A DNA stretch of 64,000 nt from Nocardioides pocheonensis (GTDB taxonomy: Bacteria; Actinomycetota; Actinomycetes; Propionibacteriales; Nocardioidaceae), in the NCBI RefSeq assembly GCF_003725535.1, contig NZ_RJSF01000019.1, forward strand, positions 212,514 to 276,513, written 5' to 3'. Of the stretch, positions 12,166 to 23,963 are shown one piece after another (position 1 is the stretch's first letter; each line of letters begins with the position of its first letter). Below the pieces are notes generated by a model, which saw only the letters and a program-made list of their open reading frames with translations, had not been told where the DNA came from and ran no database searches. The position numbers and the translations under genes are program-made.

Positions 12166-13959
12166 ATGACTGCGAAGGACGCACCACGCCCAGACGGCGT
12201 CAGGAAGCTCTATGAGCTGATGCGCCGCGTGAACTCCTCCAGCGACCCGGCCGAGGTGCTCGAGGAGATCGCTCGCGGCGTCGTCGAGGTGCTCGGCTTC
12301 GGGATCGCCGCCATCGCCCGCCTCGAGGGCGACACCCTCGTGATGACCACGGTCGCCGGCCCCGAGGACGTCCGCGAGCAGATCATCGGACGCCGTACGC
12401 CGGTCTCGGCGATCCTGAACGAGTTCGCCCAGGCCGACGAGTGGGGCGTGCTGCGCTACGTCCCCCACGGCCGGCTGCCCGACGAGATCATGAGCGCGGC
12501 GTGGATCCCCGAGATCGACCCGAGCGACGACCCCGAGGCCTGGCACCCGCTCGACGCCCTCTACGCCCCCCTCTACAGCGCGACCGGCGAGCTGCTCGGC
12601 AACATGTCCGTCGACCTGCCCCCGGGCAACCGCATCCCGGGCCGGCGCGACCGCGAGCTGCTCGAGATGTTCGTGGTCCAGGCGGGCCTCGCGATGTTCA
12701 ACGCCCAGCAGCGCGAGCGGCTCGCGGAGCAGGTGCGTCTGGGTGAGACGCTCCAGCGGGTCACCGCCGCGGGGCGGCTCCTCGGCCTGGACCTGACCCT
12801 GCACGAGGCGGCGGAGGCGATCGCGACCGGCCTGGACGCCGCCCAGGTCTGGGTGCACTGCTTCCCGGACGGCGAAGCGAGCGCGAGCGAGTACGCCGCC
12901 GGCTTCCCCGACCGGGCGCCGACGCAGCGCCAGGCGGGCCTGCGACGCGAGCTGGCCCGTGCGGCCCACGAGCTGGGTCGTCCGATCGTCGTCGGCCGCG
13001 ACTCCGAGGAGCCGGGCCTGTGGGGCGTGCAGAACGTGCTGGCGCTCTACGACGCGGGCAGCCTGGCCGCTGTGCCGATCGCCGTCGGGCACGAGCTGCT
13101 CGGCAACCTGGTCCTGCTGCGCAGCAAGGACGCGGCCGACCTCACCGAGGCCGAGCTCGACGCGATCGAGCAGATCAGCCGCGAGATCGGCCGGATGGTG
13201 CTCAACACCCGCCTCTACGAGACCGAGCGCCGCCTGGTCGCCGAGCTGCAGGAGATCGACCGCTACAAGGGCGAGCTGATCGCCACCATCTCCCACGAGC
13301 TGAAGACCCCGCTCACCTCGATCATCGGGCACACCGAGCTGCTCGAGGAGCTCTCCACCGAGGTCGACTCGGTCCAGGCGATCTCGCGCAACGCCCAGCG
13401 GCTGAACCGGCTGATCGAGAACCTGCTGAACTACTCCCGCATCCAGGACCGCCGCGAGCACGCCCGCCGCGCGGTCGACCTGACCGTGCTCTGCGAGAAC
13501 AGCCTCGACCTGCTCGCGGTGCAGGCCGAGCAGGGCGGCCTGCAGGTGAAGCTGGCCTCCCCGCCGTCTCCGGTCGTCGTGTACGGCGACCCCGAGGAGC
13601 TCGCCCGCGTGATCGACAACATCCTCAGCAACGCGGTGAAGTACACCCCGGCCGGCGGTCGGGTCGACGTCGCCGTCAGCGCCGACGGCTCGTGGGGCGA
13701 GGTGGCGTGCACCGACACGGGCCTGGGCATCTCGGTGGTCGACCAGAGCCACCTCTTCTCGGCGTTCCACCGCTCCAGCAACCCCGAGGCCCTCTCGATC
13801 CCGGGCACCGGCCTCGGGCTGGCGATCTCCCGCCGGATCACCGAGCTGCACGGTGGCGACATCCTGGTCGAGTCCACCCTCGGGGAGGGCAGCACGTTCC
13901 GCGTGCGGCTACCCCTCAGCGACCGGCCCGTCGGCGACTGGGCGCTCGAGGACCGCTGA
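12166..13959 (+). CDS. GAF-domain sensor histidine kinase (orphan)
   Basis: 597 residues with no transmembrane segment. Two GAF-like sensory regions, about residues 15-180 and 195-345, precede a HisKA domain with the phospho-acceptor His377 in TISHELKTPL. The ATPase domain follows: NILSNAVKYTP (N box), DTGLGIS (G1) and GTGLGLAISRRI (G2). A GGGAG site lies about 11 bases before the ATG, and TACGCT at 12121-12126 is a plausible -10 giving a leader of some 35-40 bases. No response regulator adjoins it. Its last 51 bases overlap the convergent cydDC gene. The ligand (redox, gas or small molecule) is unknown. Confidence 0.9.
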   Translation: MTAKDAPRPDGVRKLYELMRRVNSSSDPAEVLEEIARGVVEVLGFGIAAIARLEGDTLVMTTVAGPEDVREQIIGRRTPVSAILNEFAQADEWGVLRYVPHGRLPDEIMSAAWIPEIDPSDDPEAWHPLDALYAPLYSATGELLGNMSVDLPPGNRIPGRRDRELLEMFVVQAGLAMFNAQQRERLAEQVRLGETLQRVTAAGRLLGLDLTLHEAAEAIATGLDAAQVWVHCFPDGEASASEYAAGFPDRAPTQRQAGLRRELARAAHELGRPIVVGRDSEEPGLWGVQNVLALYDAGSLAAVPIAVGHELLGNLVLLRSKDAADLTEAELDAIEQISREIGRMVLNTRLYETERRLVAELQEIDRYKGELIATISHELKTPLTSIIGHTELLEELSTEVDSVQAISRNAQRLNRLIENLLNYSRIQDRREHARRAVDLTVLCENSLDLLAVQAEQGGLQVKLASPPSPVVVYGDPEELARVIDNILSNAVKYTPAGGRVDVAVSADGSWGEVACTDTGLGISVVDQSHLFSAFHRSSNPEALSIPGTGLGLAISRRITELHGGDILVESTLGEGSTFRVRLPLSDRPVGDWALEDR

Positions 13960-16900
13960 GCCGCTGACGACCTGACCCCGGTCGGAGAGCGTCAGCACCC
14001 GGTCCATCTCGGCCAGGCCGACCTCCTCGTGGGTGATCCACACCAGGCTGCGGCGTGCGTCCGGGCCGTCACCGCGGGCGGCCAGCACCGTGTCGGTCAC
14101 GGCGCGGGCCGTGGCGGTGTCCAGGTGCGCGGTCGGCTCGTCGAGCACGAGCACCTCGGGGTCGGCGAGCAGGGCGCGGGCGATCCCGATCCGGGCCCGC
14201 TCGCCGCCGGAGACGTCCGTGGCGCCGTCGCCGAGGAGCGTGTCGAGACCCTCGGGCAGGTCGGCGTACCAGGCGCCGAGGCCGGCCGCGCGCAGGGCCG
14301 CCAGCACGCGGAGGTCGTCCGCGGCCGGCGACGCCAGCCGCAGGTTCTCCCGCAGGGACGAGGCGAACACGTAGGGGTTGTCGTCGACGAGGCCGACGTG
14401 CCGGCGCACCTCGGCCGACCCCAGCCGCTGCGCGTCCTGCTCGGCCAGGAGGTACGCACCGTCCCGGGGCGCCAGGTGTCGCACCAGCGTGGCGGCCAGC
14501 GTGGACTTGCCGCAGCCGGAGGGTCCGACGACACCGAGCGCCTGGCCCGGCGCCAGGTGCAGGTCGAGCCCGGTGACCACCGGCTGGTCGGACCACGCCA
14601 GTGAGGCGTGCTCCAGGCGCAGGTCGCAGGGACCCGAGAGCGTGGCCGGGGTGGCCGGCTCGGTGACCGCCGGGGCCAGGGCCTCGAGTGCGGCCAGCCG
14701 CTCGCGGGCGGCGCGGGTGCGGACGCCCATCGACCCGGCCTCCGGCACGGTGACCAGAACGTCGTGGAGCGCGAGCGGCAGCAGCAGCAGCATCGCGGTC
14801 ATGGGCCCGGACACCTCCCGGGCCGCGAGGCCGGGCGCGGTCAGCCACGCGGTCGCGACCACCGCCGCGCCGGAGAGCACGACCAGCAGGCCGCGAGCCG
14901 CGGCCAGCGCGCGTGCCGTGGCCCGGCTCGCCGCGGCCAGCCGGGTGCCGATCCGGCCGACCCGCTCGACGGCGGCGTCGTCGGCCTCCCACAGCACCAA
15001 TTGCCGCGCCGACTGGAGGCCGGCGACGACCTCCGCGGAGAGGGCGGCCCGCTCGGTGACGAACGCGGCCTCCGCGCGCCGGGAGCCGAGCCAGCCCAGG
15101 AGCAGGGCGGTCCCGCCGCCCGCGAAGGCCACGAGCGCCACCGGCACCACGGAGACGGGGTGCACCAGGAGCGCCACCAGGCACGCGACCAGGCTGGTCC
15201 CGAGCGCCGCGAGCAGGGGCTGGCGCACCCGGAGCTGCTCGTCGAGCTGGGCGTCGACGTCGTCGACGACAGCGGTCAGCAGGTCGCCGCGGTGCCGTCC
15301 GAGGCGGGCGGGGGAGAGCGGGACCAGTACGTCGTAGACCCGGGCCCGGGTGTCGGCGAGCATCCTGAGCGCGACGTCGTGGGACACCAGCCGCTCGGCG
15401 TACCGGAGGGCGGGCCGGGCCAGGCCGAACGTGCGCACGCAGACGATCGCGACCATCAGGTAGAGCACCGGGGGATGCTGCGCCGACTTGGCGATCAGCC
15501 AGCCGGCCGTCGCGGTCAGGGCCACGCCCGAGGTCGTCGCCGCGGTGGCGAGGGCGGTGGCGAGCGCCAGCCGGCGACGGGCGTGCACGGGAGCGGGGAC
15601 CGGCGTCTCCGCGGGCTCGGGGTCGGCCGTGCCCGCGACGGCCGCCGCGGCGGGGACGACGACGTCGTGCTCGGCGGGGGGCGTCACGGCCTCACCGGCG
15701 GGCGTCGTGAGCACGACCAGGTGGTCGGCTGCGCCGATCACGGCGGCGCGGTGCGCGACCACGACGACGATGGCGTGCCGGGCGAGCCGGGTCAGGGTGG
15801 CGAGCATGATCTGCTCGGTCTCGGCGTCGAGGTGGGCCGTCGGCTCGTCGAGGATCACGTAGGGCCGGTTCGCCAGTACCACGCGGGCCAGCGCGAGCCG
15901 GGCGCGCTGTCCGGCCGAGAGCCCGGCGCCGTCCTCGCCGAGGGGCGTCTCGAGCCCGAGCGGGAGCGTCGCGACGACCTCCTCGAGCCCGACGGCGGCC
16001 AGGGAGCGCCAGAGCTCGGGGTCGGTCGCCTCGGGACGGCCGATCCGCAGGTTGTCGGCGACGGTGCCGGCGGTCAGCCACGGCACCTGCGGCACCTGGG
16101 CGACCAGGTGGCGCCAGCTGCGCACGTCGACGGGCTCGCCGGCGAGCGTGATCGAGCCGCTGTCGAGCGGGCGCTCGCCGAGGAGCGCCTGCACGAGCGT
16201 GGACTTGCCGCACCCCGAGGGCCCGACGATCGCGGTCAGGCCCGGTGCCGGGATCGTCGCTTCCGGTACGACGAGCGCGGGTCGCGTGCTGCCCGGGTAG
16301 GAGACGACCACGTCACGCAGGTGCAGCGGCACCGGGTCGACGCGGTCGGGGTCCTCGGGCTGCGCGGCGTCGGCATCGGCGGACCGCACGGCGGCGGCCT
16401 CGTCCAGCAGCGCGGTCACCGAGACCAGCGTGGCGACGCCCTCGGCGGCGGAATGGAACTCCGCGCCCACGCGGCGCAACGGCCAGTAGGCCTCGGGCGC
16501 GAGCAGCAGCACGACGAGCGCGGTGCGCAGGTCGAGGCCGCCGGTCGCGAGCCGGAGGCCGACGCTGACGGCGACGAGGGCGACCGACAGGGTGGCGATC
16601 AGCTCGAGCGCGCCGCTCGACGCGAAGGCGAGCTTGAGGGTCTCCAACGTGGCCTGCCGGTAGCGGTCGGTGACCGCCCGGATCCGACGGGACTGCACCT
16701 GCGCCCGGTTGTAGGTGACCAGTGTGGGCAGCCCACGGACGACGTCGACGAAGTGCCCGGCGAGCCGGGAGAGCGTGCGGTACTGCCGGTCGGCCCGGTC
16801 GCGGGTGGCCAGGCCGATCAGGATCGCGAACACCGGCACCAGCGGCAGCGTGCACACCACGATCACGCCGGCCCACAGGTCCTGGCTGAGGATCAGCGCG

Positions 16901-17346
16901 AGGGTCAGGGGCGGGAGGACCGTCGCCACCACGAGGGTCGGCAGGAAGCGGGTCAGGTAGGGCTCCACCGCCGCGACGCCGCGGGTGGCGAGCAGCCCGA
17001 GCTCGCCGCTGCGCCGCCGGGACAGGCCGACGGTGCCCAGGTCCGTCGCCGCCCGGAGCACCTGCATCCGCAGGCTGCGGGTGACCTGGCCCGCTGCATG
17101 GGCCGCTGCGACGTCGCCGCACGCGCCGACGACCGCCCGGGCAGCGCTGATCCCCAGCAGCCACCAGGCGGCGGTGTGCCAGCCGGTGCCGGCGGGTGAG
17201 GAGAGGAGGCCGGTGACCAGCGCGGCCACCGAGAACGCCTGGGCGGCGACGAGCCCGCCCGACAGCACGCCACTACCGATCACCCCGGCCAGGGAGTACC
17301 TGGCCGGGGTGAGCAGTGGCAGGACCCGCGGGTCCACCGGCTTCAT
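13909..17346 (-). CDS. cydDC: Fused CydD-CydC thiol reductant ABC exporter
   Basis: 1145 residues joining two half-transporters that are separate genes in E. coli. The complex exports cysteine or glutathione-type thiols and is required to assemble cytochrome bd. The CydD half is N-terminal, with Walker A GPSGCGKSTL near residue 375 and signature LSAGQRARLALARVVL. The CydC half follows after a Pro/Ala linker, with a second Walker A near residue 938 and signature VSGGERARIGIARALL. Each half has about six transmembrane helices before its ATPase. Fusion is known in Streptomyces-type actinobacteria. It is the third gene of the cyd operon, 25 bases after cydB. Confidence 0.95.
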   Translation of the reverse strand: MKPVDPRVLPLLTPARYSLAGVIGSGVLSGGLVAAQAFSVAALVTGLLSSPAGTGWHTAAWWLLGISAARAVVGACGDVAAAHAAGQVTRSLRMQVLRAATDLGTVGLSRRRSGELGLLATRGVAAVEPYLTRFLPTLVVATVLPPLTLALILSQDLWAGVIVVCTLPLVPVFAILIGLATRDRADRQYRTLSRLAGHFVDVVRGLPTLVTYNRAQVQSRRIRAVTDRYRQATLETLKLAFASSGALELIATLSVALVAVSVGLRLATGGLDLRTALVVLLLAPEAYWPLRRVGAEFHSAAEGVATLVSVTALLDEAAAVRSADADAAQPEDPDRVDPVPLHLRDVVVSYPGSTRPALVVPEATIPAPGLTAIVGPSGCGKSTLVQALLGERPLDSGSITLAGEPVDVRSWRHLVAQVPQVPWLTAGTVADNLRIGRPEATDPELWRSLAAVGLEEVVATLPLGLETPLGEDGAGLSAGQRARLALARVVLANRPYVILDEPTAHLDAETEQIMLATLTRLARHAIVVVVAHRAAVIGAADHLVVLTTPAGEAVTPPAEHDVVVPAAAAVAGTADPEPAETPVPAPVHARRRLALATALATAATTSGVALTATAGWLIAKSAQHPPVLYLMVAIVCVRTFGLARPALRYAERLVSHDVALRMLADTRARVYDVLVPLSPARLGRHRGDLLTAVVDDVDAQLDEQLRVRQPLLAALGTSLVACLVALLVHPVSVVPVALVAFAGGGTALLLGWLGSRRAEAAFVTERAALSAEVVAGLQSARQLVLWEADDAAVERVGRIGTRLAAASRATARALAAARGLLVVLSGAAVVATAWLTAPGLAAREVSGPMTAMLLLLPLALHDVLVTVPEAGSMGVRTRAARERLAALEALAPAVTEPATPATLSGPCDLRLEHASLAWSDQPVVTGLDLHLAPGQALGVVGPSGCGKSTLAATLVRHLAPRDGAYLLAEQDAQRLGSAEVRRHVGLVDDNPYVFASSLRENLRLASPAADDLRVLAALRAAGLGAWYADLPEGLDTLLGDGATDVSGGERARIGIARALLADPEVLVLDEPTAHLDTATARAVTDTVLAARGDGPDARRSLVWITHEEVGLAEMDRVLTLSDRGQVVSGSAVLERPVADGPVAEG

Positions 17347-17371: not shown

Positions 17372-18403
17372 TCACGCCGCGCCGGCGGGCAGTGGCTCCG
17401 CCGGGCTCACCGGCGGGATGTGATGGGTCGAGAGCCGCTTGCGGAACACCCAGTACGTCCAGGCCTGGTAGGCCAGGACGACCGGCGTGAAGATCACCGC
17501 GACCCAGGTCATCACCGTCAGGGTGTAGCCGGTGGCCGACGCGCTCGTCGTCGTCAGGGAGTACGCCGCCGAGGTGGTCGAGGGCATCACGTCCGGGAAG
17601 AGCGCGAAGAACAGCCCGGCCACCGCAAGGGCGATGGTCGCGAAGGTGCCGATGAACGCCCAGCCCTCCCGACCCTTCCACGCCGCGCCGATCGCACCGA
17701 CGAGCGCGAGTGCCGCGAGCACGAACGCGACGCCGGAGGACACCGACCCGGTCTTGGCCTGGGCCCAGACCAGGAAGACCACCGCCACCACCGCGGCCGC
17801 GAGCCCGAGCCGCACCGAGAGCGCGCCGGCACGGTGCCGGATCTCGCCGTCGGTCTTGAGCGCGATGAACATCGCGCCGTGCGTCGCGAACAGCAGCAGG
17901 GTGACCACGCCGCCGAGCAGTCCGAACGGGTTCAGCAGCGTGAACAGGTTGCCGGTGAACTCCTTGTCGCCGTTGATCGGGACGCCCGCCACGATGTTGG
18001 CGAACGCGACGCCCCACAGCAGCGCCGGGACGAAGGAGCCGATGACCAGGCTGAGGTCCCAGTTGCGCCGCCAGACGTCGTCGTCCTTCTTCGCGCGGTA
18101 CTCGAAGGCGAGGTTGCGCACGATCAGGGCGACGAGGATCAGCAGCAGTGGCAGGTAGAACCCGCTGAACAACGTGGCGTACCACTCGGGGAACGCCGCG
18201 AACGTGGCGCCACCGGCGACCAGCACCCACACCTCGTTGCCGTCCCAGAGCGGGCCGACGGTGTTGTAGAGCACGCGACGCTCGGTGTCGTTCCTGGGCA
18301 CGACCGGCAGCAGCATGCCGACGCCGAAGTCGAAGCCCTCGAGGGTGAAGTAGCCGATCCAGAGGACGGCGATGAGCGCGAACCAGACAGTCGTGAGTTC
18401 CAT
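17372..18403 (-). CDS. cydB: Cytochrome bd ubiquinol oxidase subunit II
   Basis: 343 residues, about eight to nine transmembrane helices. Opens with MELTTVWFALIAVLWIGYF and continues with the CydB signature LEGFDFGVGMLLP, then VGPLWDGNEVWVLVAGGATF. With CydA it forms the bd-type terminal oxidase that reduces oxygen with high affinity, without proton pumping. The ATG lies 16 bases after cydA with AGAGAGGA upstream. The C-terminus LAYQAWTYWVFRKRL is canonical. Confidence 0.96.
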   Translation of the reverse strand: MELTTVWFALIAVLWIGYFTLEGFDFGVGMLLPVVPRNDTERRVLYNTVGPLWDGNEVWVLVAGGATFAAFPEWYATLFSGFYLPLLLILVALIVRNLAFEYRAKKDDDVWRRNWDLSLVIGSFVPALLWGVAFANIVAGVPINGDKEFTGNLFTLLNPFGLLGGVVTLLLFATHGAMFIALKTDGEIRHRAGALSVRLGLAAAVVAVVFLVWAQAKTGSVSSGVAFVLAALALVGAIGAAWKGREGWAFIGTFATIALAVAGLFFALFPDVMPSTTSAAYSLTTTSASATGYTLTVMTWVAVIFTPVVLAYQAWTYWVFRKRLSTHHIPPVSPAEPLPAGAA

Positions 18404-18419: not shown

Positions 18420-19868
18420 TCAGTAGGCGAACGCCAGCGGGCGGTCTTCGTCGGACGTGTGGTCGGGTGGCGCCTCGTACGCCGGGGCGCCGAGCTTGAT
18501 GTAGCGCCACATCAGGCCGAACTCGACGACCGCCAGCACGGCGTACAGGGAGGTCAGCACGATGACGGAGACCCAGGCGTCGAAGACCGAGACGCCGGGG
18601 GAGACGCCCTGGGCCGTGGTCATCAGGCCGAAGACCACCCACGGCTGCCGGCCCATCTCGGTGAACATCCAGCCCCAGGCGTTGCCGAGGATCATCGCGA
18701 TCGGCAGCAGGATGGCCAGGCGGGGCCACCAGGCACCCGTCGGACGGCCCCCGTTGCGCGTGACCAGCAGGATCAGCGCGGCACCGGCCGCGGCGAACAC
18801 GCCGAGCCCGATCATGAAGCGGAAGGACCAGTAGGTCACCGGGATGATCGGGGTGTAGTCACCGGGGCTGTAGTACTTGTTGCCCGGGTCCTGGCCGTAC
18901 TTGGCCTGGTACTCCTCGCGGAGCTGGTTGATGCCCTTGACCTCGCTGTTCGGCGAGCCCGTGGCCAAGAAGGAGAGCAGCTTGGGCACCTTGATCGCGA
19001 ACTTCTCCTGGGTGCCGTCGGGCGTGCCGATGGTCAACAGGGAGAAGGAGGCGCCCGACTCCGTCTCGTAGAGGCCCTCCGCAGCCGCCATCTTCATCGG
19101 CTGGACCTCGGTCATGATCTTGCCCTGGACGTCACCGCTGATCGCCACGCCCAGCCCGGCGACCAGCGTGACCGCCGCACCGATCCGGACCGCCCGCAGG
19201 TACAGCGGGGCGTCGTCCTCGGGCGCCGCGACCGCGCGGCGCTGCTTGAGGTGGAGGTACGCCGCGACGCCGACCACGAAGGCGCCGGCGGTCATGTAGG
19301 CCGACAGCACGACGTGCGGGAACGTCACCAGCTGCACCTTGTTGAACATCACGGCCCAGAAGTCGTGGAGCTCGGCGCGCCCGGTCTTCGGGTTGTACTG
19401 GTAGCCGACCGGGTGCTGCATCCAGGAGTTCGCCGCGAGGATGAAGTAGGCGGAGAACAGCGTGCCGATGTGGACCAGCCAGATCGTCGCCGCGTGCAGC
19501 TTCGGTGGCAGCTTCCCCCACCCGAAGATCCACAGCCCGAGGAAGGTGGACTCCAGGAAGAAGGCCAGAAGTCCCTCGATGGCCAGCGGCGCGCCGAAGA
19601 TGTCACCGACGAAGCGGGAGTAGTCCGACCAGTTCATGCCGAACTGGAACTCCTGCACGATGCCGGTGACGACACCGATCGCGAAGTTGATCAGGAAGAG
19701 CTTGCCGAAGAACTTCGTGAGTCGGAGGTACTCCTCGCGTCCGCTGCGGACCCAGGCAGTCTGAAAACCCGCCACCATGGCGCTGAGGCCGATGGTGACG
19801 GGGACGAACAGGAAGTGGTAGACGGTCGTGATGCCGAACTGCCAACGTGCGATGTCGGTGACATCCAT
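18420..19868 (-). CDS. cydA: Cytochrome bd ubiquinol oxidase subunit I
   Basis: 482 residues carrying the three haems (b558, b595, d) and the quinol site. It starts MDVTDIARWQFGITTVYHFLFVPVT, whose histidine is the N-terminal haem ligand region. MGRQPWVVFGLMTT is the invariant GRQPW motif. The periplasmic quinol loop (about residues 255-325, around LLSFLATGSPNSEVKGIN) is of the short Q-loop class. A GGGAG site precedes the ATG by about 10 bases. The 17-bp palindrome at 19900-19916 lies 31 bases upstream and matches the operator before blaI. Confidence 0.96.
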   Translation of the reverse strand: MDVTDIARWQFGITTVYHFLFVPVTIGLSAMVAGFQTAWVRSGREEYLRLTKFFGKLFLINFAIGVVTGIVQEFQFGMNWSDYSRFVGDIFGAPLAIEGLLAFFLESTFLGLWIFGWGKLPPKLHAATIWLVHIGTLFSAYFILAANSWMQHPVGYQYNPKTGRAELHDFWAVMFNKVQLVTFPHVVLSAYMTAGAFVVGVAAYLHLKQRRAVAAPEDDAPLYLRAVRIGAAVTLVAGLGVAISGDVQGKIMTEVQPMKMAAAEGLYETESGASFSLLTIGTPDGTQEKFAIKVPKLLSFLATGSPNSEVKGINQLREEYQAKYGQDPGNKYYSPGDYTPIIPVTYWSFRFMIGLGVFAAAGAALILLVTRNGGRPTGAWWPRLAILLPIAMILGNAWGWMFTEMGRQPWVVFGLMTTAQGVSPGVSVFDAWVSVIVLTSLYAVLAVVEFGLMWRYIKLGAPAYEAPPDHTSDEDRPLAFAY

Positions 19869-19899: not shown

Positions 19900-19916
19900 T
19901 CCTACACAACGTAGTA
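19900..19916 (-). promoter_or_regulatory. Candidate BlaI-type operator in the cydA promoter
   Basis: On the minus strand this reads TACTACGTTGTGTAGGA. It matches 14 of 17 bases of the palindrome TACTACGTCGGGTAGTA before blaI (22674-22690), with the same 6-5-6 half-site layout. BlaI/MecI-family repressors are known to bind TACTAC/GTAGTA-type dyads. It sits where the cydA core promoter is expected, so binding would repress the operon. Confidence 0.6.
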
Positions 19917-19982
19917 GATGGTACGACACCGCCGCCGGGCCGCGGAGGGGACAAGGTCCCCGGGGTGCGGGACAGTGGTCCC

Positions 19983-20492
19983 ATGGACATCGGTGCCTTG
20001 TTGTCAGACTCGCTCGGACGCGTCCGCGACCAGGTCCCGGAGGTGGTCCGCGGACTCGACGTCGACCAGCTCGCCTGGCGTCCCGACGAGGGCGCGAACT
20101 CCCTGGCCTGGCTGGTCTGGCACCTCACCCGCATCGAGGACGACCACGTCGCCGAGGTGGCCGGCACCGAGCAGGTGTGGACGGCGTCGGGCTGGTACGA
20201 CCGGTTCGCGCTGCCCTTCCCACCGCAGGTCCACGGCTGGGGCCAGAGCGAGGACGAGGTGGCTCAGGTGCGGGTCACCGCGGAGCTGCTGACCGGCTAC
20301 CACGCCGCGACCGCCGAGCGCGCGATCGAGTACGTCGAGACGCTCACCCCGGACGACCTGGACCGGGTGGTCGACGAACGCTGGGACCCCCCGGTCACCC
20401 TCGGCGTGCGCCTGGTCAGTGTCGTGTGCGAGGTCAACCAGCACGTGGGGCAGGCGGCGTACCTGCGCGGGCTGATCGAGCGGCGGCGCTAG
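19983..20492 (+). CDS. DinB-like (DUF664) family protein
   Basis: 169 residues with the four-helix DinB/YfiT-like fold. This is a metal-dependent family that includes mycothiol- and bacillithiol-dependent transferases and is unrelated to DNA polymerase IV. Helix one contains NSLAWLVWHLTRIEDDH, with a conserved histidine; a later helix has CEVNQHVGQAAYLRGLIE, with the second histidine. Actinobacterial members of this DUF664 group are often single-domain. The ATG starts MDIGALLSDSLGRVRDQ; the longer frame upstream is antisense to cydA. Substrate unknown. Confidence 0.82.
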   Translation: MDIGALLSDSLGRVRDQVPEVVRGLDVDQLAWRPDEGANSLAWLVWHLTRIEDDHVAEVAGTEQVWTASGWYDRFALPFPPQVHGWGQSEDEVAQVRVTAELLTGYHAATAERAIEYVETLTPDDLDRVVDERWDPPVTLGVRLVSVVCEVNQHVGQAAYLRGLIERRR

Positions 20493-20496
20493 CGGC

Positions 20497-21435
20497 TCAG
20501 GGGCGCGGCAGCGTGCTGATGCCGAACGCCGTGGTCATCGAGGCTGCCGTCGCCGCGTTGCGGAGGTAGGGCACGCCGGCGACGTCCTCGAGGAGCCGGG
20601 TCAGCGAGTAGTGGGTCAGCGGCGTGCCGACGACCTTGTGCTGCTGGTAGCGCGACGCGACCACGGTCAGCACCGTGTTGCCCTGGTGGTGGTCGTCCTC
20701 GTCCGCGGTGATCACGACGGCCAGCCGTCCCGACTGCCAGTCGGGCCCGGCCTGGATCCGCGTGATCTTCTTGCTGAGCCACGCGTCCGAGGTGGCCAGG
20801 GACGCGTCGTGGGCGTCGTGGACCAGGTTCGGGATCACCATGCCGACGTTGGGGAGCGTGCCGGCGTCGGCGTTCCTGCCGAGCGCACCAGCCATCACGT
20901 CGTACCGGCGGCAGGCGGTGCGGTCGGAGACGAAGTAGGTCCACGGGTTGTGCCGGACGGCGTACTCACCGGCGTTGGCGAGCGCGCAGCGCCGCGGCTG
21001 GGACTCGGCGTACACCTTCACGGTGCGGCCGGCGCGGCGGGCCTGGGACAGCACCGATGCGCCCCGCAGCCGGTGCGCCGCCGGCGGCCTGTCGTCGGTC
21101 ACGCCGAACGTCGAGCCGCCGAGGATCGCGAGGTAGTTCGGGAGCGAGGGGTGCGTGATCGCGGTGTAGTTGGTCGCGTAGGCGTACTGCTGGGCGAGAC
21201 CGTGGACGAACGGCATCGAGGACGTCATCTGGTCGAGCGAGTGGTTCTCGACCATGAACACCAGCACCTTGGTGATCGCCGGATTCGGCGGCGCCGTGCT
21301 CCCGGGGCGCGTGGCGCGTGGCGCCGCCGCAGCCCCGCCGCCGGCGGAGGTGAGCGCGGCCAGCACGGCCAGGGCGGCCACCAGGGCCACTGCGGACAGG
21401 TGCCTGCGGGTGCGCAGGTCAGGGCGATTGATCAC
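20497..21435 (-). CDS. Secreted phosphoesterase (alkaline-phosphatase fold, PF04185-like)
   Basis: 312 residues. An N-terminal signal sequence (basic RRH, then LSAVALVAALAVLAALTSAGG) indicates export. The mature part has VLVFMVENHSLDQM, ITHPSLPNYLAILGGSTFG and VITADEDDHHQGN, typical of the phospholipase C/acid phosphatase phosphoesterase family; the Glu-Asn near the start and the late Asp-Glu-Asp-Asp are the likely metal-site region. The GTG is chosen because GAGGAGG lies 5 bases upstream; the open frame begins 10 codons earlier. It is convergent with the DinB-like gene, 4 bases apart. Confidence 0.85.
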   Translation of the reverse strand: MINRPDLRTRRHLSAVALVAALAVLAALTSAGGGAAAAPRATRPGSTAPPNPAITKVLVFMVENHSLDQMTSSMPFVHGLAQQYAYATNYTAITHPSLPNYLAILGGSTFGVTDDRPPAAHRLRGASVLSQARRAGRTVKVYAESQPRRCALANAGEYAVRHNPWTYFVSDRTACRRYDVMAGALGRNADAGTLPNVGMVIPNLVHDAHDASLATSDAWLSKKITRIQAGPDWQSGRLAVVITADEDDHHQGNTVLTVVASRYQQHKVVGTPLTHYSLTRLLEDVAGVPYLRNAATAASMTTAFGISTLPRP

Positions 21436-21624
21436 GATTCCTCCTCGGGGCCCACAGCACATCATGCCGGGCGGTCACAACGGGGGAGGTTCGGGAAGTG
21501 GCGGGAGCCGGGAGCTCGACGGGGTCGCGCGGTCCGCTCCACGGACCTGTGCGCCCTGGCTGCCTGGAGGCATGCCGGTCCGAGCCGCCGGGTCGACCCG
21601 GAGCCAGGAGGGTCGAAGGCGCGT

Positions 21625-21843
21625 CTAGAGCCGGGACATCTTGCGGAACGGGCTGGGCACCCGGACCTTCTGCGAGCGGAAGTCGACGGTCACTGCCGCC
21701 GCCTCCACGTTCACGACCCGACCCATGCCGTAGGAGTCGTGGGAGACCAGGTCGTCCACCTCGAACTCCTCGATCACCGGCTCGGGCTCTGGCTGGAACG
21801 GGCTGCTGGCCAAGTGTCGACGCGGCCGTGCTGAGGTACTCAT
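21625..21843 (-). CDS. Small CarD/KOW-like conserved protein
   Basis: 72 residues. The core VDDLVSHDSYGMGRVVNVEAAAVTVDFRSQKVRVPSPFRKM resembles the small Tudor-like fold seen in CarD and KOW proteins, where V-x-H-x-x-Y/F-G-x-G-x-V is the fold signature. The N-terminal 25 residues are basic and proline-rich and probably disordered. A GGAGG motif lies about 12 bases upstream of the ATG. Function is unknown; RNA polymerase or RNA contact is only an inference from fold similarity. The enclosing longer frame is antisense to the next gene. Confidence 0.6.
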   Translation of the reverse strand: MSTSARPRRHLASSPFQPEPEPVIEEFEVDDLVSHDSYGMGRVVNVEAAAVTVDFRSQKVRVPSPFRKMSRL

Positions 21844-21975
21844 CACTGCCAGTATCCTCCTTCGCCGCCCGTACGCCGAACTGATGCCGGATCCTGGCGT
21901 GTGACCGTCGTCGCAGGGGGTGGCCGCGCGGGCGCGCGATCGGGCGGATCTGGGGGCTCGCGCCACAATGTGGGC

Positions 21976-22443
21976 ATGCCTCGGACCATTGCGACCAACA
22001 CGACCGTGGACCTCGACGGGCTGCTCGAGTTCGTCCGGTCGCGGCACCACCTGGTGCTCGTGACCCGGCGCTCCGACGGCTCGCCCCAGCTCTCGCCGGT
22101 GACCGGCGGGGTCGACGACAGCGGCCGGATCGTGATCGCGACGTATCCGGAGCGGGCGAAGACCGCCAACGCCCGGCGCAGGCCGGAGGTCTCGGTGCTG
22201 GTGCTGTCCGACGACTTCGACGGTCCCTGGGTGCAGGTCGACGGCACCTGCGAGGTCCTGGACGTGCCCGAGGCGGTCGAGCCGCTCGTGGAGTACTTCC
22301 GGAACATCTCCGGTGAGCACCCCGACTGGGACGAGTACCGGCGGGCGATGATCGACCAGGGCAAGTCGCTGCTGCGGATCACCCCGACCCGGTGGGGGCC
22401 GGTCGCGAGAGGTGGGTTCCCCCCGCGGCTCGCGGAGGGGTGA
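21976..22443 (+). CDS. PPOX-class F420-dependent oxidoreductase
   Basis: 155 residues of the split-barrel flavin/deazaflavin-binding fold. HHLVLVTRRSDGSPQLSPVTGGVDDSGRIVIATYPE is the classical PPOX core with the cofactor-phosphate-binding segment ERAKTANARR. The C-terminal FPPRL is typical of actinobacterial F420H2-dependent members. The reaction is probably reduction of an unsaturated or quinone-like substrate; the specific substrate is unknown. CACAAT, a weak -10, lies 6 bases before the ATG. Confidence 0.85.
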   Translation: MPRTIATNTTVDLDGLLEFVRSRHHLVLVTRRSDGSPQLSPVTGGVDDSGRIVIATYPERAKTANARRRPEVSVLVLSDDFDGPWVQVDGTCEVLDVPEAVEPLVEYFRNISGEHPDWDEYRRAMIDQGKSLLRITPTRWGPVARGGFPPRLAEG

Positions 22444-22455
22444 GGCCGCGGCGGG

Positions 22456-22614
22456 TCAGCGCCCGTCCGGCGGCGCCTGGTCGGGCTCCCACTCGGGCAT
22501 CGCGTCCGGACCGGGGTCGGGCTCCCCGCCCGGCTGTTCGCTCGGCTGCACGGCCGGGTCCCCGGACGGGACGACCTGGGGGTCCTCGACGGGCTCGTTC
22601 GGCGTGGTGGTCAT
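22456..22614 (-). CDS. Small acidic proline-rich protein
   Basis: 52 residues, dominated by Pro, Glu, Asp and Gly (MTTTPNEPVEDPQVVPSGD...PDQAPPDGR) and predicted to be disordered. It is divergent from blaI, with 84 bases between starts that include the blaI operator. No homology is recognised. The composition and the ATG make it plausible rather than certain. Confidence 0.45.
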   Translation of the reverse strand: MTTTPNEPVEDPQVVPSGDPAVQPSEQPGGEPDPGPDAMPEWEPDQAPPDGR

Positions 22615-22673
22615 CGCCGGGCGGTACCCGGCTCCCCGCTGCGCAGTCGCGGCGTACGCACTCGGCGCTCTGT

Positions 22674-22690
22674 TACTACGTCGGGTAGTA
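22674..22690 (+). promoter_or_regulatory. BlaI-type operator upstream of blaI
   Basis: TACTACGTCGGGTAGTA: a perfect 6-bp dyad (TACTAC/GTAGTA) with a 5-bp centre. It overlaps the -10 box TAGTAT of the blaI promoter, as expected of autorepression. The half-sites match the known BlaI/MecI recognition pattern. Confidence 0.8.
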
Positions 22691-22691
22691 T
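22686..22691 (+). promoter_or_regulatory. Putative -10 box of blaI (leaderless)
   Basis: TAGTAT lies 7 bases before the GTG start and is embedded in the right half of the BlaI operator. Confidence 0.6.
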
Positions 22692-22698
22692 CTGCGTC

Positions 22699-23097
22699 GT
22701 GCCCCGCCAGTCCCGCCTCGGAGACCTCGAGCGCAGCGTCATGGAGTCGCTGTGGGACGCCGGCGACGCGTGGCGCACCGTGCGCGAGGTGCACGACGTC
22801 CTCGCTCGCGACCGCGACATCGCCTACACGACCGTGATGACGGTGCTCGACCGGATGGCGCGCAAGGACCTCGTCGAGCGTGAGCGTGAAGGGCGCGCCT
22901 GGAGGTACCGGCCCTCGCAGAGCCGTGGCGCGATGACCGCGGAGGTGATGCGCCAGGCCCTCGGTGAGTTCGCCGAGGAGGCCAACGCGCGCGACCGGGC
23001 GGCCGCCCTGGTGGCCTTCGTCGGCGAGGCCACCGACGCCGACCGGCAGGCGCTGCGAGACGCCCTCGCCGCGCTGGAGCGTCGCAGCCGGGCATGA
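22699..23097 (+). CDS. blaI: BlaI/MecI/CopY-family winged-helix repressor
   Basis: 132 residues. LGDLERSVMESLWDAGD and IAYTTVMTVLDRMARKDLVERE are the winged-helix signature of BlaI repressors, and the C-terminal helical part is the dimerisation domain. It is predicted to bind the 17-bp dyad overlapping its own promoter and probably the similar site before cydA. It overlaps the M56 protease gene by four bases (ATGA), the BlaI/BlaR1 pairing seen in inducible resistance systems, though no beta-lactamase gene is present nearby. The GTG start is at leaderless distance from its -10 box. Confidence 0.93.
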   Translation: MPRQSRLGDLERSVMESLWDAGDAWRTVREVHDVLARDRDIAYTTVMTVLDRMARKDLVEREREGRAWRYRPSQSRGAMTAEVMRQALGEFAEEANARDRAAALVAFVGEATDADRQALRDALAALERRSRA

Positions 23098-23963
23098 CCA
23101 CCCTGGTGCTGGCGGCCCTGGCGGTGCTGCTCGCCGGCCCGGTTCCCTGGCTGATGACCCGGCTCCACGGGTTCCGGCGCACGCCGCGGGCGGCGATGGT
23201 GCTCTGGCAGGCGGTGGCGCTGGCCGGGGTGCTCTCCGCCCTGGGCGCGGGGCTGTCCCTGGTCACCGTGCAGCTGGTGGGGGAGCAGTCGGTCCGCTCG
23301 TACGCACTGTCGGCGATCCCGCTGTCGCTGACCGGCCTGGTCCTCGCGCGGCTGCTGCTCTCCGGCCACCGGGTCGGCACCGGTCTGCGTCAGCTGCGTC
23401 GACGGCACCGCCACCTCGTCGATCTGCTCGCCGAGGACCACGACGGGGTGCACGTGCTCGAGCACGAGGCGCCGACGGCGTACTGCGTGCCGGGCCTGCG
23501 TTCCCGCGTGGTGGTCAGCAGTGGCACGGTCTCCTCGCTCACCGACCGGCAGCTCGCCGCCGTGCTGAGCCACGAGCAGGCTCACGTGCGGGCCCGGCAC
23601 GACCTGGTTCTCGAGGGGTTCACCGTGCTCCAGGAGGCGTTCCCGAGGGTGGTCACCTCGAAGCAGGCGCTCGCCGAGGTCCAGCTGCTCGTGGAGGTGC
23701 TCGCCGACCGCGCAGCCCGACGGCGGCAGGGCGCGCACGCCCTGGTCTCGGCGTTCTCGGCGCTGCTGGACGGAGGCCTGGTCCAGGCACCCGAAGGTGC
23801 CGTGGCGGCCACGGGCAGCGACCTGCAGGTGCGGATCGGGCTGCTGCTCGACGACCACCGCCACCGGGTGCAGGCAGGCGTCCTGCTGCTGCTCGCCGCC
23901 GGGGTGCTGGTGCTGCCCACCCTGCTCGTCGTGCTGCCCTGGCTCCAGGGGCTTGCCGGCTGA
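23094..23963 (+). CDS. M56-family membrane metalloprotease (BlaR1-like, no sensor domain)
   Basis: 289 residues. Three hydrophobic helices (about 2-21, 35-62, 70-90) precede a zinc protease domain with HEQAH at 160-164 and the likely third ligand Glu201 in EVLADRAA. A final helix lies at about 262-285. Family members cleave their partner repressor when a signal arrives. Unlike BlaR1 there is no penicillin-binding sensor domain after the last helix, so the stimulus must be sensed otherwise. It is translationally coupled to blaI. Confidence 0.88.
   Translation: MTTLVLAALAVLLAGPVPWLMTRLHGFRRTPRAAMVLWQAVALAGVLSALGAGLSLVTVQLVGEQSVRSYALSAIPLSLTGLVLARLLLSGHRVGTGLRQLRRRHRHLVDLLAEDHDGVHVLEHEAPTAYCVPGLRSRVVVSSGTVSSLTDRQLAAVLSHEQAHVRARHDLVLEGFTVLQEAFPRVVTSKQALAEVQLLVEVLADRAARRRQGAHALVSAFSALLDGGLVQAPEGAVAATGSDLQVRIGLLLDDHRHRVQAGVLLLLAAGVLVLPTLLVVLPWLQGLAG

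Follow-up and report, generated by a model that had tools for sequence, protein, structure and literature searches.

In staphylococci, BlaI/MecI and BlaR1/MecR1 combine a Penicillinase_R winged-helix repressor, a dyad at the repressor's own promoter and an adjacent membrane zinc protease, and all three features recur at the Nocardioides pocheonensis locus described here, although its protease has no penicillin-binding sensor domain, the locus has no beta-lactamase gene and the predicted target is a respiratory oxidase. That oxidase, cytochrome bd, serves as an alternative terminal oxidase when the main one is limited, and it matters for the tolerance of respiratory drugs by mycobacteria. The other close comparison is with the BlaI (Rv1846c) and BlaR (Rv1845c) proteins of Mycobacterium tuberculosis: according to PMC5473688, which cites Sala (2009), BlaI binds at the promoters of cytochrome bd and of ATP synthase, and BlaR has no beta-lactam sensor domain. 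For the ATP synthase operon, both binding in an electrophoretic mobility shift assay (EMSA) and repression have been reported (PMC12565901). Since binding at the cytochrome bd promoter is already on record in PMC5473688, a link between BlaI and cyd is not new in kind, and the same text provides a precedent for the statement in the initial annotation that mycobacterial BlaI is tied to respiratory genes. There is less documentation for a BlaI-protease module that is linked to cyd and has no beta-lactamase; no such cis-linked arrangement of blaI, protease and cyd genes outside the mycobacteria was found in the literature searched, most subscription journals lying outside its scope.

The window, by which we mean the whole 64 000 nt stretch analysed, encodes cytochrome bd in a leftward run of genes extending from 19868 to 13909 on the reverse strand. 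These are cydA (18420..19868; subunit I, PF01654, E-value 2e-164), cydB (17372..18403; subunit II, PF02322) and a cydD-cydC fusion (13909..17346) that specifies the bd oxidase assembly exporter in one 1145 aa ORF with matches to TIGR02857 and TIGR02868. On the forward strand, blaI (22699..23097) has a GTG start and encodes a 132 aa protein matching Penicillinase_R (PF03965; E-value 4e-25, 89 bits against a cut-off of 22.6); it is 49 % identical to M. tuberculosis BlaI (PDB 2G9W, E-value 1e-24), and the genome contains no other BlaI-family gene. The gene for a BlaR1-like membrane zinc protease (23094..23963, forward strand; 289 aa, with the motif HEQAH) follows, its start overlapping the blaI stop by 4 bp. 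The DNA separating cydA from blaI contains a mycothiol-S-transferase/DinB-like gene (19983..20492, forward; PF04978), a phosphoesterase-like gene (20497-21465, reverse), a small ORF with below-threshold resemblance to CarD domains (21625-21843, reverse) and an F420/PPOX-type gene (21901-22443, forward), all of which we place outside the putative switch.

A perfect TACTAC-N5-GTAGTA dyad, TACTACGTCGGGTAGTA (22674-22690, forward strand), stands 8 bp 5′ of blaI, and a second predicted BlaI operator, TACTACGTTGTGTAGGA (19916-19900, on the reverse strand, which is the cydA coding strand), stands 31 bp 5′ of cydA. The latter has one mismatch to the motif, its imperfect half reading GTAGGA, and three mismatches to the blaI dyad; the two are thus 14/17 identical, which confirms the figure that the initial annotation had given for the palindrome at the blaI promoter and the sequence at the cydA promoter. 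A -10-like TAGTAT at 22686-22691 is formed from the 3′ half of the blaI dyad and the T that comes next, and ends 7 nt 5′ of the GTG; this arrangement points to a leaderless promoter that would be blocked by the repressor. The promoter positions at blaI and cydA were placed by eye, and a scan of the two upstream regions with the sigma-70 consensus found no promoter.

Similarity of the two dyads by chance can be ruled out from shuffled windows, from the rarity of the motif in the genome and from the family survey presented below. Shuffled windows hold a mean of 0.01 dyads, and none of 100 shuffles reached two matches. In the 4.92-Mb genome a pattern search allowing one mismatch, the genome-wide scan that the initial annotation had proposed, returned four sites only; two are those at the blaI and cydA promoters, and four places drawn at random from the genome would put one in the 115-bp gap 5′ of cydA with a probability of approximately 1e-4. 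The remaining two (C7:227884 and C8:43360) were dropped as targets because both are within coding sequence, one inside a long ORF and one at the end of an apparent rpsD. At this threshold blaI and cydA are therefore the only noncoding dyad locations in the genome, whereas blaC and the ATP synthase operon are part of the regulon reported for M. tuberculosis.

We surveyed cydA promoters in 150 genomes of the same family, taken as Nocardioidaceae from the named relatives, which yielded 94 main-type and 36 paralogous cydA upstream regions; since these genomes are related to one another, their counts cannot be taken as independent. The initial annotation had pointed to close relatives that keep blaI as the place where a missing cydA dyad would tell against its proposal, and at all 48 sampled loci with blaI divergent from cydA the common region carries one to three dyads. 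(The script counted 47; G124, in which the flank ends at the contig end, was added after dyads were read at C51:1012, 1057 and 1076, just 5′ of cydA at 1130.) Dyads are absent from the 14 main-type promoters in genomes where BlaI is found only elsewhere or beside another cydA, from all 36 paralogous promoters, and from all but one of the 32 main-type promoters in genomes without BlaI. Comparing divergent with all other main-type loci, Fisher's test gives 3e-26, a value that overstates the evidence among related genomes. The one exception is G120, a close relative with a genome 75 % complete, the blaI of which may be in the missing part. Neighbouring dyads are often in tandem, with a commonest spacing of 19 bp (32 pairs), or about two helical turns.

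Control of cydA in actinobacteria by Rex/CRP-type regulators is likewise transcriptional control of cytochrome bd, and the corresponding site, TGTGA-N6-TCACA, is distributed quite differently from the dyad, being present in 18 of the 36 paralogous cydA promoters (L222-L257) and in none of the 48 dyad-bearing promoters; no promoter in this set had both kinds of site. The cydA promoter of the window showed no Rex/CRP-type site, and this form of control was dropped. We regard it as highly improbable that some other regulator binds the dyad with BlaI a mere neighbour, in that dyads in the survey track divergent blaI genes and, G120 aside, are absent where blaI is absent; the same dyad is moreover found 5′ of blaI itself, even where blaI is in trans (mycobacteria and Micromonospora), and a variant, TTCTAC-N5-GTAGAA, accompanies divergent blaI genes in another two families.

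The separation of blaI from cydA in the window can be placed in a phylogenetic context with a tree built from 81 BlaI protein sequences, although this is a short protein and the tree does not resolve several of its deep forks. The window BlaI is nearest to that of Marmoricola RYN_191 (support 99/94) and falls in a set of 24 (96/89), the other 23 of which are all cyd-linked, while 16 BlaI proteins encoded elsewhere in genomes form a separate clade (100/98); the window BlaI is thus a member of the cyd-linked clade. In Marmoricola RYN_191 (L018), cydA and blaI are direct divergent neighbours with three dyads, and the DinB-like gene is after blaI, rather than between cydA and blaI as in the window. 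The simplest reading of these gene orders is that a local rearrangement split an originally divergent pair, now approximately 2.8 kb apart; the ancestor would have had several dyads shared by the two genes, and separation in the window's lineage would have left one dyad at each promoter.

The same association extends beyond the family. Divergent blaI genes are seen at named loci of Kribbella and Phytoactinopolyspora, and a class-wide sample contains 22 further divergent blaI-cydA pairs in four other families, including 15 of 15 genomes in one of them; the Streptomyces loci examined have no dyads. In the Intrasporangiaceae Phycicoccus, Terracoccus and Knoellia, blaI lies about 6 kb downstream of the cydA start and dyads are still present at cydA, and in Micromonospora there are dyads at cydA and another 5′ of a blaI located in trans. 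Among genomes with a BlaI 79-93 % identical to that of M. tuberculosis, which we assign on this basis to Mycobacteriaceae, a dyad with no more than one mismatch is present in 13 of 13 cydA promoters sampled, and each of eight blaI loci read has a dyad of its own. These mycobacterial relatives therefore resemble the window in having a dyad at both cydA and blaI, but their blaI is in trans to cydA whereas that of the window is near the cyd genes.

These comparisons bear on whether the cydA dyad is a relic, with BlaI now regulating mainly itself and the protease, and something else running cydA. The window promoter has a single, slightly imperfect dyad and no second in tandem, whereas most relatives have two or three, and control of cydA may accordingly be weaker here than in the relatives. 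A relic is nonetheless improbable. The G120 dyad is 17/17 identical to that of the window, and the block around it has been kept identical, although the cyd region, with its shared cydA-DinB neighbourhood, is 83 % identical over 3.6 kb; cydA dyads are retained in the other lineages with a separated blaI; and the window promoter offers no Rex/CRP-type site. We consider control of cydA by the window's BlaI to be highly likely from the sequence comparisons, and the proposal of the initial annotation that BlaI controls cytochrome bd is supported both by the dyads across genomes and by the clade to which this BlaI belongs.

Protease homologues follow cyd-linked blaI genes in nearly all loci examined. 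An exception is Marmoricola RYN_191, where there is no protease gene in the blaI flank examined in spite of the presence of blaI and dyads, and the protease may thus not always be needed. Residues H160, E161, H164, E201 and D205, which make up HExxH and an ExxxD motif downstream of it, are invariant. The initial label of M56 protease holds in so far as the product is a BlaR1-like membrane zinc protease encoded beside blaI, but the Pfam assignment is to M48 (41.6 bits, cut-off 20.3), with Peptidase_M56 below its cut-off (17.6 against 31); 12 of 14 members of the protease family match M56 at E-values of 0.01 or less. The structural model is helical (mean pLDDT 81) and its best fold match is to BlaR1 (8exq), although this is weak (probability 1.00, E-value 0.012, TM 0.39).

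Neither the profile search nor the model reveals a penicillin-binding sensor domain in the 289 aa protease, which resembles M. tuberculosis BlaR in this respect and compares with 554 aa for the BlaR1 chain. This is pertinent to the idea that the locus works like the staphylococcal switch, responding to beta-lactams or to wall damage as its true signal and having cyd as one of its targets. The family names would favour such a switch, as would an increase of M. tuberculosis blaI-blaR and cydAB mRNA upon treatment with a beta-lactam plus clavulanate, reported in PMC5473688. We think it unlikely, however, given a protease of this kind, the absence of a beta-lactamase gene at any of the four genomic dyad places (class A matches in the genome are weak only) and the recurrence of cydA as the neighbour.

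Because the pairing recurs across many actinobacteria, the BlaI-protease pair very probably governs respiration here and not antibiotic resistance. We propose that blaI and the downstream protease gene constitute an autoregulated repressor-protease pair, for which the conserved target besides itself would be cydAB-cydDC, the operon for cytochrome bd. Dimers of BlaI are predicted to bind TACTAC-N5-GTAGTA in the -10/start region of blaI and in the cydA promoter of N. pocheonensis, holding both low; the BlaR1-like protease would read a membrane or respiratory stress and inactivate BlaI, and the bd oxidase would then be made as an alternative terminal oxidase. Repression and proteolytic release are steps that we infer from knowledge of the BlaI family, and the signal proposed is likewise conjectural. 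That such a module is conserved at cyd suggests a connection to respiration, across actinobacteria, for a regulator that owes its name to penicillin resistance, and the cyd-linked loci would be simple places to seek the signal of sensor-less BlaR proteins. A tentative extension, about which we have some doubt, is that actinobacterial BlaI and its protease are primarily a respiratory-stress switch in which the protease senses the state of the respiratory chain or of the membrane rather than beta-lactams, and that beta-lactamase control was added later, for example in mycobacteria.

Most perfect dyads in the Nocardioidaceae genomes are between blaI and cydA. A few (L258, L260, L262 and L263) are found outside the cyd and blaI regions: those in G092 and G104 are near CopC-like and DsbA-like genes, and those in G054 and G085 stand 5′ of membrane-protein genes that resemble each other, G085 having two dyads close together. 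In Actinomadura fibrosa (L312) and Spirillospora albida (L316), the region between blaI and a divergent cydA of the second class contains perfect dyads. We also note that the variant dyad is near cydA in the two families that carry it (L336, L337 and L338), with three copies at 19-bp spacing in one of these.
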